Positions 11,331 to 22,660 of a DNA stretch of 64,000 nucleotides are shown piece after piece. Where the stretch lies: the NCBI GenBank assembly GCA_030041045.1, contig JASHOQ010000123.1:1-64000 (forward strand). Reading direction: 5' to 3'. How positions within the stretch are numbered: position 1 is the first letter of the stretch; the number at the start of each line of letters is the position of its first letter. Both the position numbers and the translations under genes were made by a program. Below the pieces are notes generated by a model, which saw nothing but the letters and a program-made list of their open reading frames with translations, made no database searches and had not been told where the DNA came from. Source of the stretch: Acidobacteriaceae bacterium (GTDB lineage: Bacteria; Acidobacteriota; Terriglobia; Terriglobales; Acidobacteriaceae).

Positions 11331-12793
11331 ACTTCTGGAATCCACGATCGATTGCCGGCAAGCTGACGCGGGTGAATCTAGTGGTGACGGGAACGGCGCT
11401 GCTGCTGGCCTATGTGGCGTTTCTGGCTTATGACTTGTACACGCTGCGCGAGGACCTGATTCATTCCCTCACCACCGAAGCGGGAATCGTGAGCGCGAAC
11501 AGCGTGACGCCGTTGCTGTTTGACGATCCGCAGGCGGCCGAGAGCACGCTTGCGGCCTTGCGGCTTTCTCCGCATATCCGCTGGGCTGAAATTGTGAGCG
11601 CGGACGGGAAGCCGTTTGCGGCTTACCGGCAGAATCAAGAGGAGAATCCGGAGCTGAGCGTGAAGCTTGCTCCCGGCCAGGCGCGCCAATACTGGGCGAA
11701 GGGCGCGAATATCCTGATGGGCAGCCGCATTGATTTCCAAGGACGCGAACTGGGCGCCGTGTATCTGTTTGCGGGCACGGGCGAGCTGACGCAGCACACG
11801 GGTCAGTTCGGCCTGCTTTGGGCGCTGATTCTTTCGCTGTGCTTTGCCATCGCGGTCCTGGCCACGAACGCGATCCGGCACCTGGTGACCGACCCGCTGA
11901 CGGAGCTGGCCGGAACGGCGCAGGTGGTGAGCCGGGAAAAAGACTACTCCGTGCGCGCGCCCATGCCCGCCACGAGCGACGAACTCTCCAATCTAGTGCA
12001 ATCGTTCAACGAGATGCTGGAGCAAATCCAGGCGCGCGATCGGGCGCTGGAAGAAACACGCAACGCGCTGGAGGCGCGGGTTCGCGAACGCACGGCGGAA
12101 TTGACGGAGGCCAACAAGGAGCTGGAGGCTTTCTCCTATTCTGTGGCGCACGACCTGCGCGGACCGCTGCAGCACGTGGCCAATATTTCCTTTCTGCTCA
12201 AAAACTCGAGCGCCATGCGCTGGAGCGCCGAGGACTCCGGGCTGGTGGAGAAGCTGGTCGAAGGAGCGGACCGGATGGCCGCGCTCATCGACGACCTGCT
12301 GAACCTTTCGCGCGCTACGAGCGCGCCGCTCAGGCGCACGCCGGTGGACCTGAGCAAGATGGCGCAAACCATTCTCGCCAACCTTCAGGCCGGCGACAAG
12401 AAGAGAAGAGTGCAGATCAAGGTGGCCGAAGGAGCGCGCGCAATGGTGGACGAAGGGCTGATCGGGGTGGCGCTGGTAAACCTGCTGAACAACGCGTGGA
12501 AGTATACGTCGCGGCTGGAGGTGGCGGAGATCGAGTTCGGCTACCGCGAAGAGGCGGCGGGCACGGTGTATTTTGTGTGCGACAACGGCGCCGGATTCAA
12601 CCCGCGCTACGCCGACCGGCTGTTCCGGCCCTTCCAGCGGCTGCACGCGCAGAGCGATTTTCCGGGGACGGGGATCGGGCTGGCGACGGCATCGCGGATC
12701 ATTGCGCGCCACGGCGGCAAGATCTGGGCGGAGGGCCAGGTGGGGCAGGGCGCGGTTTTCTCGTTTACGCTGCCGTATACGCCGGAGAATTAG
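11327..12793 (+). CDS. Sensor histidine kinase (CHASE8-like sensor, HAMP, HisKA, HATPase_c)
   Basis: MNFWNPRSIAGKLTRVNLVVTGTALLLAYVAFLAYD...; AFSYSVAHDLRGPLQHV H-box; NLLNNAWKYT, GTGIGLATASRII; ATGA overlap with yfiR-like gene. Confidence 0.9.
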   Translation: MNFWNPRSIAGKLTRVNLVVTGTALLLAYVAFLAYDLYTLREDLIHSLTTEAGIVSANSVTPLLFDDPQAAESTLAALRLSPHIRWAEIVSADGKPFAAYRQNQEENPELSVKLAPGQARQYWAKGANILMGSRIDFQGRELGAVYLFAGTGELTQHTGQFGLLWALILSLCFAIAVLATNAIRHLVTDPLTELAGTAQVVSREKDYSVRAPMPATSDELSNLVQSFNEMLEQIQARDRALEETRNALEARVRERTAELTEANKELEAFSYSVAHDLRGPLQHVANISFLLKNSSAMRWSAEDSGLVEKLVEGADRMAALIDDLLNLSRATSAPLRRTPVDLSKMAQTILANLQAGDKKRRVQIKVAEGARAMVDEGLIGVALVNLLNNAWKYTSRLEVAEIEFGYREEAAGTVYFVCDNGAGFNPRYADRLFRPFQRLHAQSDFPGTGIGLATASRIIARHGGKIWAEGQVGQGAVFSFTLPYTPEN

Positions 12794-12861
12794 AGGGCAG
12801 GGCCGCAAGGAGCGGGGCGGACGGTCTTTTGGCAGGCCGAGTGGGAGAACGAAATGCGGGC

Positions 12862-12890
12862 TTGTTCTGGCCATAAATTCTGGCTATAAT
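12862..12890 (+). promoter_or_regulatory. Sigma-70-like promoter of the toxin-antitoxin pair
   Basis: TTGTTC (12862-12867), 17-bp spacer, perfect TATAAT (12885-12890); ATG only 8 nt after the -10. Confidence 0.6.
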
Positions 12891-12898
12891 TTTCAGGA

Positions 12899-13138
12899 AT
12901 GGAAGTGAGCACGGCAGAGGCGAAGAACCGGCTGACGGAATTGATCCGGCTGGTGGAGGACGGCGAGCGCGTGACGATTACGCGCCATGGGAAAGCTGTG
13001 GCGCAGCTTGGGCCGCCGCCGGCCGCAAAGAAACGCAAGGTGATTCTCGGCGGCATGCGCGGCCGCATCAAGCTTCTGCCGGGATGGGACGAACCGATAA
13101 CCGAGGAAGAGCTGCTCGGTGACGACAGTGGCCGGTGA
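12899..13138 (+). CDS. Phd/YefM family antitoxin
   Basis: MEVSTAEAKNRLTELIRLVEDGERVTITRHGKAVAQL. Confidence 0.9.
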   Translation: MEVSTAEAKNRLTELIRLVEDGERVTITRHGKAVAQLGPPPAAKKRKVILGGMRGRIKLLPGWDEPITEEELLGDDSGR

Positions 13139-13535
13139 CAACCCGTTTCGCGGCTACCTATTGGACACACACACGGCACTTTGGGCACTGCTCGAGCCAG
13201 AGCGCCTATCGGCGGGAGCTCGTGGCGCAGTGCTCGCCGGGCGCAGCGTGTTGAGCGTCATTTCCTATTGGGAAGTGATGCTGAAGAGCACGAAGGGCAG
13301 GCTTGATGCGGGTGATCCGCGCATTTGGTGGCAAACAGCGCTGGAACATTTGAATGCGATGCCGTTGACGCTGAGGCCAGAGCATATCGATGCCCTGCAA
13401 GGCCTGCCGGACTACCACCGCGACCCGTTCGACCGCATGCTGATTGCGCAAGCCCTGGCGGAGGGATTGACGCTGGTGAGCGCGGACCGGGATATGGCGC
13501 GCTACAAGGCGGCTGGGTTGAAGGTGGTGCGGTAA
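13119..13535 (+). CDS. PIN domain toxin (VapC-like)
   Basis: YLLDTHTALWALLEPERLS...SVISYWEVMLK...YHRDPFDRMLIAQALAEGLTLVSADRDMARY; 20-bp overlap with antitoxin ORF. Confidence 0.9.
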   Translation: MTTVAGDNPFRGYLLDTHTALWALLEPERLSAGARGAVLAGRSVLSVISYWEVMLKSTKGRLDAGDPRIWWQTALEHLNAMPLTLRPEHIDALQGLPDYHRDPFDRMLIAQALAEGLTLVSADRDMARYKAAGLKVVR

Positions 13536-13554
13536 AGCGGATTCGTGGAAAGCC

Positions 13555-13599
13555 GGTCCTTCGACTCGGTCGCTACGCGACCTTCGCTCAGGATGACAG
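13555..13599. repeat. Family D palindromic element
   Basis: GGTCCTTCGACTCGGTCGCTACGCGACCTTCGCTCAGGATGACAG; stem GGTCGC/GCGACC. Confidence 0.7.
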
Positions 13600-13610
13600 C
13601 GGAGAGTGGC

Positions 13611-15449
13611 CTATGCGGGCGGCTTCCAGCGCAGGATGGGCTTGCGCGCAGCCTGCACTTCATCGAGACGCGAGACGCGCGTGGAGTGGGGCGCGTTTTT
13701 TATCAGCTCCGGCGCGGTTTCTGCCTCATGTGCAATGCTGCGCATGGCAGCGATGAACAGATCGAGCTCTTCGACCGACTCGCTCTCCGTGGGCTCGATC
13801 ATGAGCGCGCCGGGAACGATCAACGGGAAACTCACCGTGTAGGGATGGAAGCCGTAGTCGATGAGGCGCTTGGCGATGTCGCCGGTTTTGACGCCGCGCG
13901 CGGCCTGGCGCCTGTCGCTGAAGACCACTTCGTGCATGGAGGGCGTGTTGTAGGGCAGCTCGTAGATGTCTTCGAGTTTCTTGCGGATGTAGTTGGCGTT
14001 GAGGACGGCGTCTTCGGTGGTCTGGCGCAGGCCGTCAGGGCCGTTGGCGAGGATGTAGGCGAGGGCGCGGATGAACATGCCGGTGTTGCCGTAGAAGGCG
14101 CGCACGCGGCCGACGGAGTGGGGGCGGTTGTAGTCCCAGTGCAATGGGCTCTTTGACTGAGTTTCCCCGGTCCCCAAAGGCGAGGGATCTCCACCCCACG
14201 GACCAAGACCTGTCCGTGGGGACCCCGGACCGGGGGCACCCGCGTGCAGCGGCATGGGATCGTCGTCGCCCACGCGCTCGCCGGTGGAGGGATCGAAGAA
14301 CGGCGCACGAAAGAGGGGGCCGGCTTCGATTTCGGATTGGTCGGCGTCGAATTCTTCCCATTCGGCGGGAGCGGAGGCCGTGCCCTCCCTGGTCCCCAAG
14401 TGCGAGGGATCTCCACCCCACGGACCAAGACCTGTCCGTGGGGACCCCGGACCGGGGGCACCCACTTCTGTGGCCATTTGAGACCGGACGAGGACTGGGA
14501 TGGGCAGAAACGGCTCAAGAAACCTTTTGCAGGCCACGGGACCGGAGCCGGGACCGCCGCCGCCGTGAGGCGTGGAGAAGGTCTTGTGCAGGTTGAGGTG
14601 CATCACGTCGACGCCGAAGTCGCCCGGGCGGACCTTGCCGACAAGAGCGTTCATGTTGGCGCCGTCCATGTAGAGCAGTGCGCCCTTGTCGTGGAGGATG
14701 TCAGCGATCTTGTGAATCTGGTTTTCGAAGACGCCGAGGGTGGAGGGGTTGGTGAGCATGAGCGCGGCGGTTTCGCCGGTGACCTGGCGGGCGAGGGCCT
14801 CGAGGTCGATGCCGCCGTCGGCGTTCGATTTCAGATTCTCGACCTCGTAGCCGCAGATGGCCGCGGTGGCGGGGTTGGTGCCGTGGGCGGAGTCGGGGAT
14901 GAGAATCTTGTGGCGTGGATTGCCGCGCGACTCATGCCAGGCGCGGGTGAGCAGGATGCCGGTGAACTCGCCGTGCGCGCCGGCCGCGGGCTGCAGGGTG
15001 ATGGCCTCCATGCCGGTGATGTCGAGGAGGCAGCGCTCGAGCAGATCGAAGATCTCGAGGATGCCCTGGGCGAGCGATTCGGGGCGGTAGGGGTGGGCGT
15101 CGGCCAAGCCTTCGATGCGGGCGACGAACTCGTTCACGCGCGGGTTGTACTTCATGGTGCAGGAGCCGAGCGGATACATGCCCAGATCGATGGCGTAGTT
15201 CCAGGTGGAGAGGCGCGTGAAGTGGCGGATGATTTCGATTTCGGAAAGCTCGGGCAGCAAGGGCGCCTGAGTGCGCAGCGCTGCGCCTAGCAGGGACGCG
15301 GGGTTGACAGGCGGCACATCGAGCGAGGGCAGCTTGTAAGCGCGTTTGCCGGGCGAGGACTTCTCGAAGAGCAGAGCTTCGTTCTGCGTCTGGTGGGGAC
15401 GGACTTTGCCGGTTGTGCGGGGGCCGGGGGATGGTGAGTTTGTTGCCAT
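13611..15449 (-). CDS. gcvPB: Glycine dehydrogenase (decarboxylating) subunit 2
   Basis: NLHKTFSTPHGGGGPGSGP PLP-lysine motif; GMYPLGSCTMKYNPR; contains two in-frame repeat-encoded insertions. Confidence 0.95.
   Translation of the reverse strand: MATNSPSPGPRTTGKVRPHQTQNEALLFEKSSPGKRAYKLPSLDVPPVNPASLLGAALRTQAPLLPELSEIEIIRHFTRLSTWNYAIDLGMYPLGSCTMKYNPRVNEFVARIEGLADAHPYRPESLAQGILEIFDLLERCLLDITGMEAITLQPAAGAHGEFTGILLTRAWHESRGNPRHKILIPDSAHGTNPATAAICGYEVENLKSNADGGIDLEALARQVTGETAALMLTNPSTLGVFENQIHKIADILHDKGALLYMDGANMNALVGKVRPGDFGVDVMHLNLHKTFSTPHGGGGPGSGPVACKRFLEPFLPIPVLVRSQMATEVGAPGPGSPRTGLGPWGGDPSHLGTREGTASAPAEWEEFDADQSEIEAGPLFRAPFFDPSTGERVGDDDPMPLHAGAPGPGSPRTGLGPWGGDPSPLGTGETQSKSPLHWDYNRPHSVGRVRAFYGNTGMFIRALAYILANGPDGLRQTTEDAVLNANYIRKKLEDIYELPYNTPSMHEVVFSDRRQAARGVKTGDIAKRLIDYGFHPYTVSFPLIVPGALMIEPTESESVEELDLFIAAMRSIAHEAETAPELIKNAPHSTRVSRLDEVQAARKPILRWKPPA
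14169..14241. repeat. 73-bp composite palindromic repeat inside gcvPB, copy 1
   Basis: Perfect 10-bp stem CCCCACGGAC (14194-14203)/GTCCGTGGGG (14212-14221); 71/73 identical by eye to 14391-14463. Confidence 0.9.
14391..14463. repeat. 73-bp composite palindromic repeat inside gcvPB, copy 2
   Basis: Same stem at 14416-14425/14434-14443; 222 bp (74 codons) from copy 1. Confidence 0.9.
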
Positions 15450-15602
15450 TCGTTTCTGCCTCTCGTGATTCGCTTGCGCTTGTCAAAGTAAGCGCTACTA
15501 GCCTTTATAAGACGGCCCGGTTAATGCGTGCCCTTGTTGCAGAGCTCTCTGGCTTCGCCGGCTCGGCACGCTTGAAGCCGTGTCCTTTCGATTCATCCCA
15601 TC

Positions 15603-15905
15603 TCATGGAGTCTGCCGGCGCGCGCTCGCAGCTATCGAATCCCTGATCTTAGTCGCGTCGCGATAGCGCCTCTCGCCGCGATTCCACTCACTCCGTCCGC
15701 GGCTGCAGCCTACGACAAAAAAGAACAACGACACCAGGACCATCCCCAGCCAGGGCATTTTCTCCTTGCTCAAGCCATTGAGAATGATGTTGAAGATCAA
15801 CCATAATCCGCCGTACCCCGCTCCCCGAAGAAGAATGAAGGACAGTTGTCCGCGTTTTCGCGTCTTTTCCCATCGCGGCTCCCATGTTTCGGATTCGATG
15901 GCCAT
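15603..15905 (-). CDS. Small hypothetical membrane protein
   Basis: GLWLIFNIILNGLSKEKMPWLGMVLVSLFFFVVG, two hydrophobic segments. Confidence 0.5.
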   Translation of the reverse strand: MAIESETWEPRWEKTRKRGQLSFILLRGAGYGGLWLIFNIILNGLSKEKMPWLGMVLVSLFFFVVGCSRGRSEWNRGERRYRDATKIRDSIAASARRQTP

Positions 15906-15933
15906 TCCTGTTCCTCAGCTCAATCGAAGCATT

Positions 15934-17325
15934 TCACACAGTTTTGAAGCCTTGCCCCTTCAAAGCCTGGTTTCGTTCAGTCATTTCAAGCCGGGCGGCG
16001 AGGACTTTGGCTGCGCGGTCGATTTGCACGCGGGTTGTGACTTCCGTCGCGCACCAGAGCGTGCAGTGGGCGAGCTCGGGATACCAGCGGCCGAGCGCAA
16101 TGCCGCCGACGATCTTTTCCTTGAGAAGACGCTCGGCGAGCGAGGCAGGCGACTCCTCGGTTTCGAGAACGAACTCGTGAAAATGCGGAGCGCCGGTGAA
16201 CAGTTGTTTTGTGCCGGGCTGCGCGCCCAGCGTGCGGGCGGCGTAATGCGCCTTGGCCAGGTTGTGTTCGGCAAGCTCGCGGATACCTTCCCTGCCGTAG
16301 ACGGCGAGGAAGACGGTGGCCATGAGCGCCACCAGCGCCTGGTTGGTGCAGATGTTCGAAGTGGCCTTCTCGCGGCGGATGTGCTGCTCGCGCGTGGCGA
16401 GGGTGAGGACGAAACCGCGATTTCCGGCGGTGTCGACGGTCTGGCCGGCGAGGCGGCCGGGCATCTGGCGCACGAATTTTTCCCTGGTGGCGATGACGCC
16501 GCAGAAGGGGCCGCCGTAGCTCAGCGGCACGCCGAAGGACTGCGCTTCCATGGTAACGATGTCGGCTTCGAGGGGTGGGCGCACGATGCCGAGCGAGACA
16601 GCTTCAGAGATGGAGACGAGGAGCAGCGCGCCCTTCCGGTGGGCAATCTCTGCAAGCGCGGGAATGTCTTCGACGACGCCGAAGAAGTTGGGGCTTTGGA
16701 CGAGGACAGCGGCGGTTTCCTCAGTGACCGCGGCCTCGAGCGCGGCGAGATCGACGCGGCCGGACTTGCGTTCGTAGCCGACGAGCGTGGAGGGCAGGCT
16801 CTGGTGTTTGGCGTAGGTTGCCAGCACCTCGCGGTACTCGGGATGGACGGTCGCGGCGACCACGGCCTTGTGGCGGCCGGTGACGCGCACGGCCATCATT
16901 ACGGCCTCGGCCGCGCCCGTGGAACCGTCATACATGCTGGCGTTGGCCAGGTCCATGCCGGTGAGCTCGGCGATCATGGTCTGGAACTCGAAGATGGCCT
17001 GCAGGGTGCCCTGGGTGATTTCGGCCTGGTAGGGCGTGTAGCTGGTGAGGAATTCGCCGCGCTGGACGAGTGCATCGATAATGACGGGGCGGTAATGGCG
17101 ATAGGCACCGGCGCCGAGAAAGCTCGCGTAGCCGCTTGCGTTCTTTTCGCCAGCCTGGCGGAAGTAATCGATGATTTCGCTTTCGGCCTGCTGACGGGGA
17201 ACGAGCAGATCGCGGTCGAGGCGGTACTCGGCCGGGATGATGGCGAAGAGGTCGTCGATGGAGCGTGCGCCGATTTCGGCGAGCATGCGCTCGCGCTCGG
17301 CGGGGGATTTGGGGAGATAACGCAT
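15934..17325 (-). CDS. gcvPA: Glycine dehydrogenase (decarboxylating) subunit 1
   Basis: [31 protein letters not shown]...[47 protein letters not shown]. Confidence 0.95.
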
Positions 17326-20886: not shown

Positions 20887-21198
20887 ACCTGCAAAGGATT
20901 TTACCCTCCGGCCGGCCACCCAGGCTAAAGTTCCGGCAACTGCAACGGGGGAAATGGGCAAGCTTGCCGCGTCTGTCGCCATCAGGGGCTCCGTTCCGAG
21001 GGAGTCAATCCACGAGTCAGCTACGAGTGAGGCCACGAACCACTGCGCACCGGATAGACGGCGCATTGGGGGGTTTGGTAATCGGCGATGGTGGGGACAG
21101 TAGCACGAAAGTGATAGAGGGCACAATCGCCCGGGGGGATGCAGGGGGTTCCGAGGGAATGTCAGGCCGCGGGCGCCGCTGCAGCTAAACTGGAGCGG

Positions 21199-21831
21199 AT
21201 GAGCGGAAGACTCTTTGCAGATTCCCAGGCGGATGAGGGCGCGGGCTGGTTCACGGCCCATTGCGATGGCGGGTCGCGGGGCAATCCCGGACCGGCGGGG
21301 TATGGGGCGGTGATTGAGGACCCCGGAGGCCAAGTGGCGGCCCGGCTAAGCAAGTACCTGGGAAAGCAGACCAACAACTATGCCGAGTACGCGGGATTGC
21401 TGGCGGTGTTGGAGTGGGCGCTCGGGAACGGGGTGAAGCGTCTGCGCGTGGTTTCGGACTCCGAGCTGATGGTGAACCAGATGAAGGGGCGGTACAAGGT
21501 GGCGAGCGCGGGTTTGCGGCCGCTGTGGGAGGAAGCGAAGAAGCGCGCGGCGAAGCTGGACCGGTTCGAGATGCGGCATACGCTGCGCGGCGGGAACAAA
21601 GAAGCGGACAAGCTGGCGAACCAGGCGATGGATGAAGGCAGGGAACAGGGATCAGGGAACAGGGATCAGAAAGAAAACCGGGTGCCCCAGGTCCCGCCTT
21701 TGGGACCGGAGAAAGCACAACCATCCAAGGCTCCTCGGCAGGTGCTGGAGGGGTATGTGAAGGATGGGGTGGTGCATTTGCTCGATGGGGAGCTGCCGGA
21801 GGGGGCGTTTGTGAAGGTGACGCGGAAGTGA
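21199..21831 (+). CDS. rnhA: Ribonuclease HI with repeat-derived linker and C-terminal AF2212-like strand region
   Basis: FTAHCDGGSRGNPGPAGYGAVIED...NNYAEYAGLLAVLEWAL...GNKEADKLANQAMD; linker GREQGSGNRDQKENRVPQVPPLGPEKAQ; tail VLEGYVKDGVVHLLDGELPEGAFVKVTRK. Confidence 0.9.
   Translation: MSGRLFADSQADEGAGWFTAHCDGGSRGNPGPAGYGAVIEDPGGQVAARLSKYLGKQTNNYAEYAGLLAVLEWALGNGVKRLRVVSDSELMVNQMKGRYKVASAGLRPLWEEAKKRAAKLDRFEMRHTLRGGNKEADKLANQAMDEGREQGSGNRDQKENRVPQVPPLGPEKAQPSKAPRQVLEGYVKDGVVHLLDGELPEGAFVKVTRK
21639..21670 (+). repeat. Heptameric AGGGNNN array inside rnhA
   Basis: cagggaacagggatcagggaacagggatcag. Confidence 0.85.
21680..21718. repeat. Class-B palindromic element, reverse orientation, inside rnhA
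   Basis: Reverse complement GTGCTTTCTCCGGTCCCAAAGGCGGGACCTGGGGCACCC matches 854-896 and 22612-22660 flanks. Confidence 0.75.
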
Positions 21832-22611: not shown

Positions 22612-22660
22612 CGTGCTTTCCCACCCAAAACGCAAAGTACGCGTTTTGGATGGGGCACCC
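22612..22660. repeat. Class-B palindromic element
   Basis: CGTGCTTTCCCACCCAAAACGCAAAGTACGCGTTTTGGATGGGGCACCC; perfect 9-bp stem CCAAAACGC/GCGTTTTGG. Confidence 0.75.

Follow-up and report, generated by a model that had tools for sequence, protein, structure and literature searches.

Two nested palindromic repeat families within gcvPB and other conserved genes of an Acidobacteriaceae genus

To our knowledge, protein-embedded palindromes are represented mainly by those of Rickettsiales and by scattered REPs, and the step by which they insert is unclear. Rickettsia palindromic elements (RPEs) are palindromic repeats that lie in frame in many conserved genes and are expected at surface loops; several RPE families may hit one site, and equivalents exist in Wolbachia (PMC3767692, PMC2229807, PMC10969869). 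They measure about 100-150 bp, and their target duplication is listed as unknown (PMC2229807). Intragenic GTAG/CGTC REPs are palindromes of 20-40 bp, often dimers, some of which lie in ORFs such as those of uvrA, uvrD and tRNA synthetases; the same account makes no mention of target-site duplication, and it describes REPs and TIRs associated with RAYTs and TIRYTs (REPtrons, TIRtrons) and an Acidobacteria-specific TIRYT group (PMC3733652). Bacterial MITEs (Correia/NEMIS, ERIC/RU-1 and RUP) are non-autonomous and palindromic, show target duplication and are sometimes fused in frame to genes; their length is about 100-200 bp, and they carry terminal inverted repeats, in many cases ending in TA (PMC2229807).

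Composite repeats in the gcvPB loop

We analysed a 64,000-nt stretch of DNA (the window) from a bacterium of a soil Acidobacteriaceae lineage. A repeat search in the window identified two 78-nt copies, 96% identical, at 14164-14241 and 14386-14463 within gcvPB, with a start-to-start distance of 222 nt (74 codons). A preliminary description of this DNA had reported the pair with the same spacing, which was correct, and with a length of 73, which was not. It had also placed both copies in frame in a conserved glycine decarboxylase gene and read from them the peptides GAPGPGSPRTGLGPWGGDPS(H/P)LGT; both readings agree with the single minus-strand ORF found here, which has Pfam matches to GcvP2_C, GDC-P and Aminotran_5 and encodes these peptides.

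Alignment of the copies refined this reading: each 78-nt copy is two nested elements. A palindrome, GGGTGCCCCCGGTC...CCTCGCnTTTGGGGACCGGGGA, which was also found on its own elsewhere, holds between its arms a 42-nt hairpin unit, CGGGGTCCCCACGGACAGGTCTTGGTCCGTGGGGTGGAGATC. Hereafter, the enclosing palindrome is called the outer element and the enclosed hairpin the core. Both copies gave nested hairpins on folding, and the core pattern matched twice in the window versus 0 expected. The features, all on the minus strand, are as follows.

13611-15449, minus strand: gcvPB, glycine dehydrogenase subunit 2, ORF of 612 aa (Pfam; PDB relative 1wyt_B)
14386-14463, minus strand: composite copy B, nearer the protein N terminus; not a composite in G029, where a shorter outer-type palindrome takes its place
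14450-14463, minus strand: left arm of the outer palindrome of copy B, GGGTGCCCCCGGTC (sequence; alignment)
14408-14449, minus strand: 42-nt unit of copy B, consisting of the 37-nt hairpin (14413-14449) and AGATC (14408-14412), the latter a 3/5 match to CGGTC on the left
14386-14407, minus strand: right arm of the outer palindrome of copy B (alignment)
14164-14241, minus strand: composite copy A, nearer the C terminus (repeat pair), common to G029
14228-14241, minus strand: left arm of the outer palindrome of copy A (alignment)
14186-14227, minus strand: 42-nt unit of copy A, consisting of the 37-nt hairpin (14191-14227) and AGATC (14186-14190)
14164-14185, minus strand: right arm of the outer palindrome of copy A (alignment)

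The preliminary description had put a short connection at this place in other GcvPB proteins, and the comparison bore this out. For the best solved relative, 1wyt_B (Thermus P-protein), the alignment runs to query residue 324 and resumes at 436; in this relative the aligned blocks are ~2 residues apart, versus a gap of ~111 residues in the window protein, so the inserts sit where the homologue has a short connection. Within the genus, 28 loci allowed the segment from GSGPV to SVGR to be read, and its length varied between 39 and 148 residues. The commonest length, shared by many members, was 40, versus 148 in the window gene; the long loop is thus not common to all orthologues. Relative to the nearest uninserted loop, the window gene showed 28 additional codons at each site, as counted by hand between the landmarks VR to W and LH to W.

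In the closest relative, G029, the composite occupies the C-terminal-side site and the shorter outer-type palindrome the other; copy A is common to the two species at 95% identity. Loops of other species contained different repeats, among them heptapeptides of the GNREQGT type, which resemble the translation of a 7-nt DNA repeat. The loop of G004 carried another outer-element subtype (LGAPSFPRSSAERVG), which was also present in queA and valS of G017 and whose peptide was found in rlmN of G010 as well. The gcvPB loop is a permissive hot spot. Its length was already above the minimum in G006 and G035, two related species that lack the element and whose longer loop is marked by DW...PLFRAP...GER. 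In G001, G008, G015, G016 and G019, the gap between gcvPA and gcvPB holds a Y1_Tnp (RAYT-like) gene, as judged from coordinates (motif confirmed in G001 only); such a gene may contribute to the hot spot. As a separate observation, peptides such as GNREQGTGNRDQGT in gcvPB and dus at four loci (L022, L037, L038 and L018) resemble translated 7-nt repeats; a repeat of this length yields one and the same heptapeptide cycle whichever frame is read.

The 42-nt core and its host genes

The core lay within the coding sequence of 20 conserved genes supported by Pfam, and the reading frame was kept in all 20. The survey covered mainly the strongest matches, as a sample and not a census, so the number of host genes is at least 20.

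Own genome: gcvPB, rsmD, uvrA, dus (same site in G035), gltX, coaX, infB
G029: ABC transporter ATPase gene, hutH
G017: queA, ispE, valS
G010: rlmN, glpK
G013, G027 and G003: genes for RNase R, PriA (priA) and a nucleotidyltransferase, respectively
G004, G020 and G011: genes for a CorC-type protein, a PcrA/UvrD helicase (pcrA/uvrD) and HemW (hemW), respectively

Comparison of filled and empty sites gave the size of the step. In gltX, 16 orthologues have an empty site of 17 residues (EDFALLRSDGMPTYHLA and similar), while G000, G011 and G015 have 31 residues, a net gain of exactly 14 codons. The same gain, exactly 14 codons, separates hutH of G000 (empty, 50 residues) from that of G029 (64 residues). 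In coaX, the shortest orthologues have 28 residues versus 56 in G000, where two tandem units account for 28 codons. The analogy with in-frame palindromic insertion of the RPE kind, drawn in the preliminary description, is borne out by these empty sites and the 20 host genes. The three species with a filled site are not adjacent to one another in the gltX tree, and the stems of their inserts differ; repeated insertion at one target is therefore possible but not proven.

The length rule was also evident in the flanks. Among 49 distinct targets, the 5 bases before the core matched the 5 bases ending at position 42 (z=6.3); when end positions 30-55 were compared, only 42 stood out, the next signal being z=2.8. 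Per base, the match resided in positions 2-5 from the junction, and position 1 was mostly C before the core with no excess match. Taken separately, the 34 targets without confirmed coding status (z=4.7) and the 15 coding targets (z=4.4) each gave the signal, which 0/1000 shuffles reached in either set. In most core copies the direct repeats are imperfect, and both gcvPB copies match at 3/5. The core itself begins in a similar way to the CGG with which targets tend to continue, so the point where the element stops and the duplication starts can be placed only to within a few bases; the total of 42 is firm. Since 42 nt equal 14 codons, insertion of the core is frame-neutral whatever the target.

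The core has the consensus CGGGG...GGGGTGG. In 42 distinct cores, its 10-bp stem showed 28 changes on both sides, versus 6.8 in shuffled and at most 3 in slid controls, and this covariation indicates that the hairpin is maintained. Cores occur alone, in tandem with a period of 42 or within several kinds of palindrome; complementary arms of at least 7 nt surrounded 16 of the 49 distinct targets (3.4 expected). Most copies contain no stop triplets. The idea that the core is specially stop-free was rejected, as 27-50% of controls were also stop-free; beyond its length, the core thus gives no sign of adaptation to coding DNA.

Core-family matches numbered 36 in the own genome, dispersed. In a search of about 60 relatives they were found in all 35 genomes of the same genus and in 0 of 24 others; exact matches were present in the Acidobacteriaceae MAGs bog_96, fen_182, bog_321 and MAG_BO262. 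The core was near Y1_Tnp genes at 0 of 39 loci, and Rfam gave no match within positions 12500-16500 of the window. A core hairpin also lies between two ORFs of a 9.6-kb IMG/VR viral contig (L232, 1196-1225, plus strand); the contig could be bacterial or belong to a phage with the element in its genome, and it gives no clear indication of mobility.

The outer family and Y1_Tnp genes

Outer elements have the form GGGTGCCCC-hairpin-GGGAAAGCAC and span 39-59 nt, mostly 39-53 nt. The pattern GGGTGCCCCN{10,40}GGGAAAGCAC had 37 exact matches in the genome and the reversed pattern 0. Outer elements flank Y1_Tnp genes, inverted at L058, L059, L285 and L286 and direct at L292, and the Y1_Tnp assignment was confirmed by Pfam for L058 and L059. 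This arrangement points to mobilisation by RAYT/TIRYT proteins; the outer family is REP/TIR-like and probably spread by the flanking RAYT-type (Y1/HUH) transposases. A target duplication was not accepted for this family, the best of 160 offsets reaching only z=3.7.

Further outer elements were noted outside gcvPB. Two exact palindromes, of two hairpin subtypes, lie at 855-896 and 22613-22660 (both minus strand) of the window. An RNase HI gene (21139-21831, plus strand) contains a heptanucleotide-repeat stretch (~21640-21670) followed by an in-frame outer-family palindrome (~21680-21718), located after the RNase H domain and ahead of the C-terminal tail. At L075 (1-2424, plus strand), an aldehyde-dehydrogenase-like ORF with two similar domains has in its linker an outer-family element read as GAPGPSHLGTGE.

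An insertion model, its alternatives and known systems

The gcvPB repeats are most probably explained by two interacting families of small palindromes, mobile-like in character, that have inserted in frame. An outer palindrome, REP/TIR-like and moved by RAYT-type transposases, would enter the gene. The core, a hairpin of ~37 bp, would then add 42 bp at each insertion by repeating ~5 bp of the left flank, at a target of the form NNNNC followed by CGG. With 42 nt equal to 14 codons and few stops, the protein would gain 14 residues and suffer no frameshift, and one outer plus one core element per gcvPB site would fit the 28 codons gained at each. Purifying selection would keep copies in tolerant loops, mostly in frames whose peptides are rich in Gly, Pro, Ser and Asp. 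We infer that translation includes the inserts, that these are close to neutral and that the core moves in trans.

Frame use bears on translation. By gene, the six frames of the core were used 8, 6, 4, 1, 1 and 0 times, so that five of the six were occupied; with the 20 genes each treated as independent, equal use gave a Monte Carlo p=0.009. The frame used 8 times reads GSPRTGLxPWGG, that used 6 times HPTDxDLSVGTP (antisense) and that used 4 times GxPxDRSSSxGW. Such biased use supports selection on the translated peptide. It is correspondingly improbable that the hairpins escape translation through ribosome bypass or RNA processing that would leave the protein unchanged. In some mitochondria, ribosomes are known to bypass hairpins during translation, and strong hairpins with covarying stems would suit an RNA-level process too; however, bypassing requires neither the frame retention in 20 of 20 genes nor the bias, and the 42-nt length also holds outside confirmed genes.

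Recruitment of the inserts as useful functional modules of GcvPB and other enzymes is decidedly unlikely. In favour of such a role, copy A has been kept in two species and the gltX site is filled in three, but insert-free orthologues are common in the genus, one DNA is read in five frames in unrelated proteins, and many copies are not in confirmed genes.

We regard expansion of gcvPB by local duplication or replication slippage, in place of insertion of dispersed elements, as highly unlikely. The copies are close and nearly identical, and gene conversion may have homogenised the second with the first. Local duplication could nevertheless account only for the copy number in gcvPB; as the origin of the family it is contradicted by the 36 dispersed matches, the genus-wide spread and the empty sites that differ by whole 14-codon units. 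An assembly error, named in the preliminary description as a possible refutation, is scarcely credible: the genome is in 142 contigs and short repeats are prone to misassembly, but G029, a separate assembly, has the composite at the copy A site and the shorter palindrome at the copy B site, and across many assemblies the frames stay open, with exact 14-codon steps, whether the sites are filled or empty.

Taken together, the comparison of filled with empty sites, the fixed step of 42 nt, the repeated flank and the covarying stem make the insertion step readable here. These data suggest that a mobile element can be rendered harmless to coding DNA by its own length combined with target duplication, and not by selection alone. 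The many 14-residue insertions in core enzymes form a large natural set, a resource on the tolerance of proteins to insertion. A bolder version can be offered tentatively: a mobile hairpin of ~37 bp that always repeats ~5 bp of target, and is hence intrinsically frame-neutral, might act via a folded strand, often enter RAYT-associated palindromes and have extended dozens of core proteins in one genus. If true, it would be a natural in-frame insertion system.

Set against descriptions of RPEs, on which the distinction is based, the core shares with them in-frame palindromes in conserved genes and even a host, QueA (tRNA ribosyltransferase-isomerase). It differs in its total of 42 nt with a flank repeat, its nesting in another palindrome family and its occurrence in Acidobacteriaceae; both the core (42 nt) and the outer element (39-59 nt) are shorter than the RPE unit of about 100-150 bp. 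As the preliminary description held, the sequence is probably unrelated to RPEs: among the relatives searched, matches were confined to one genus, and Rfam gave none. Like GTAG/CGTC REPs, the core is multicopy (36 in its own genome), and its 37-bp hairpin falls within 20-40 bp; unlike them, neither the core (CGGGG…GGGGTGG) nor the outer family, with its ends GGGTGCCCC...GGGAAAGCAC, has a GTAG/CGTC tag. The outer family resembles REPtrons and TIRtrons in flanking Y1_Tnp genes (four loci inverted, one direct), whereas the core lies away from every Y1_Tnp gene examined and has a flank repeat. With bacterial MITEs the core shares a palindromic, as far as seen non-autonomous, nature and target-site duplication (a flank repeat at a total length of 42 only), but it is a single hairpin of ~37 bp. 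No report of the core family or of a frame-neutral insertion length was found in the literature searched, outside of which most subscription papers lie. Insertions of this kind are already known from RPEs and intragenic REPs; what appears to be new within that kind is the lineage, together with the 42-nt rule and the nesting.
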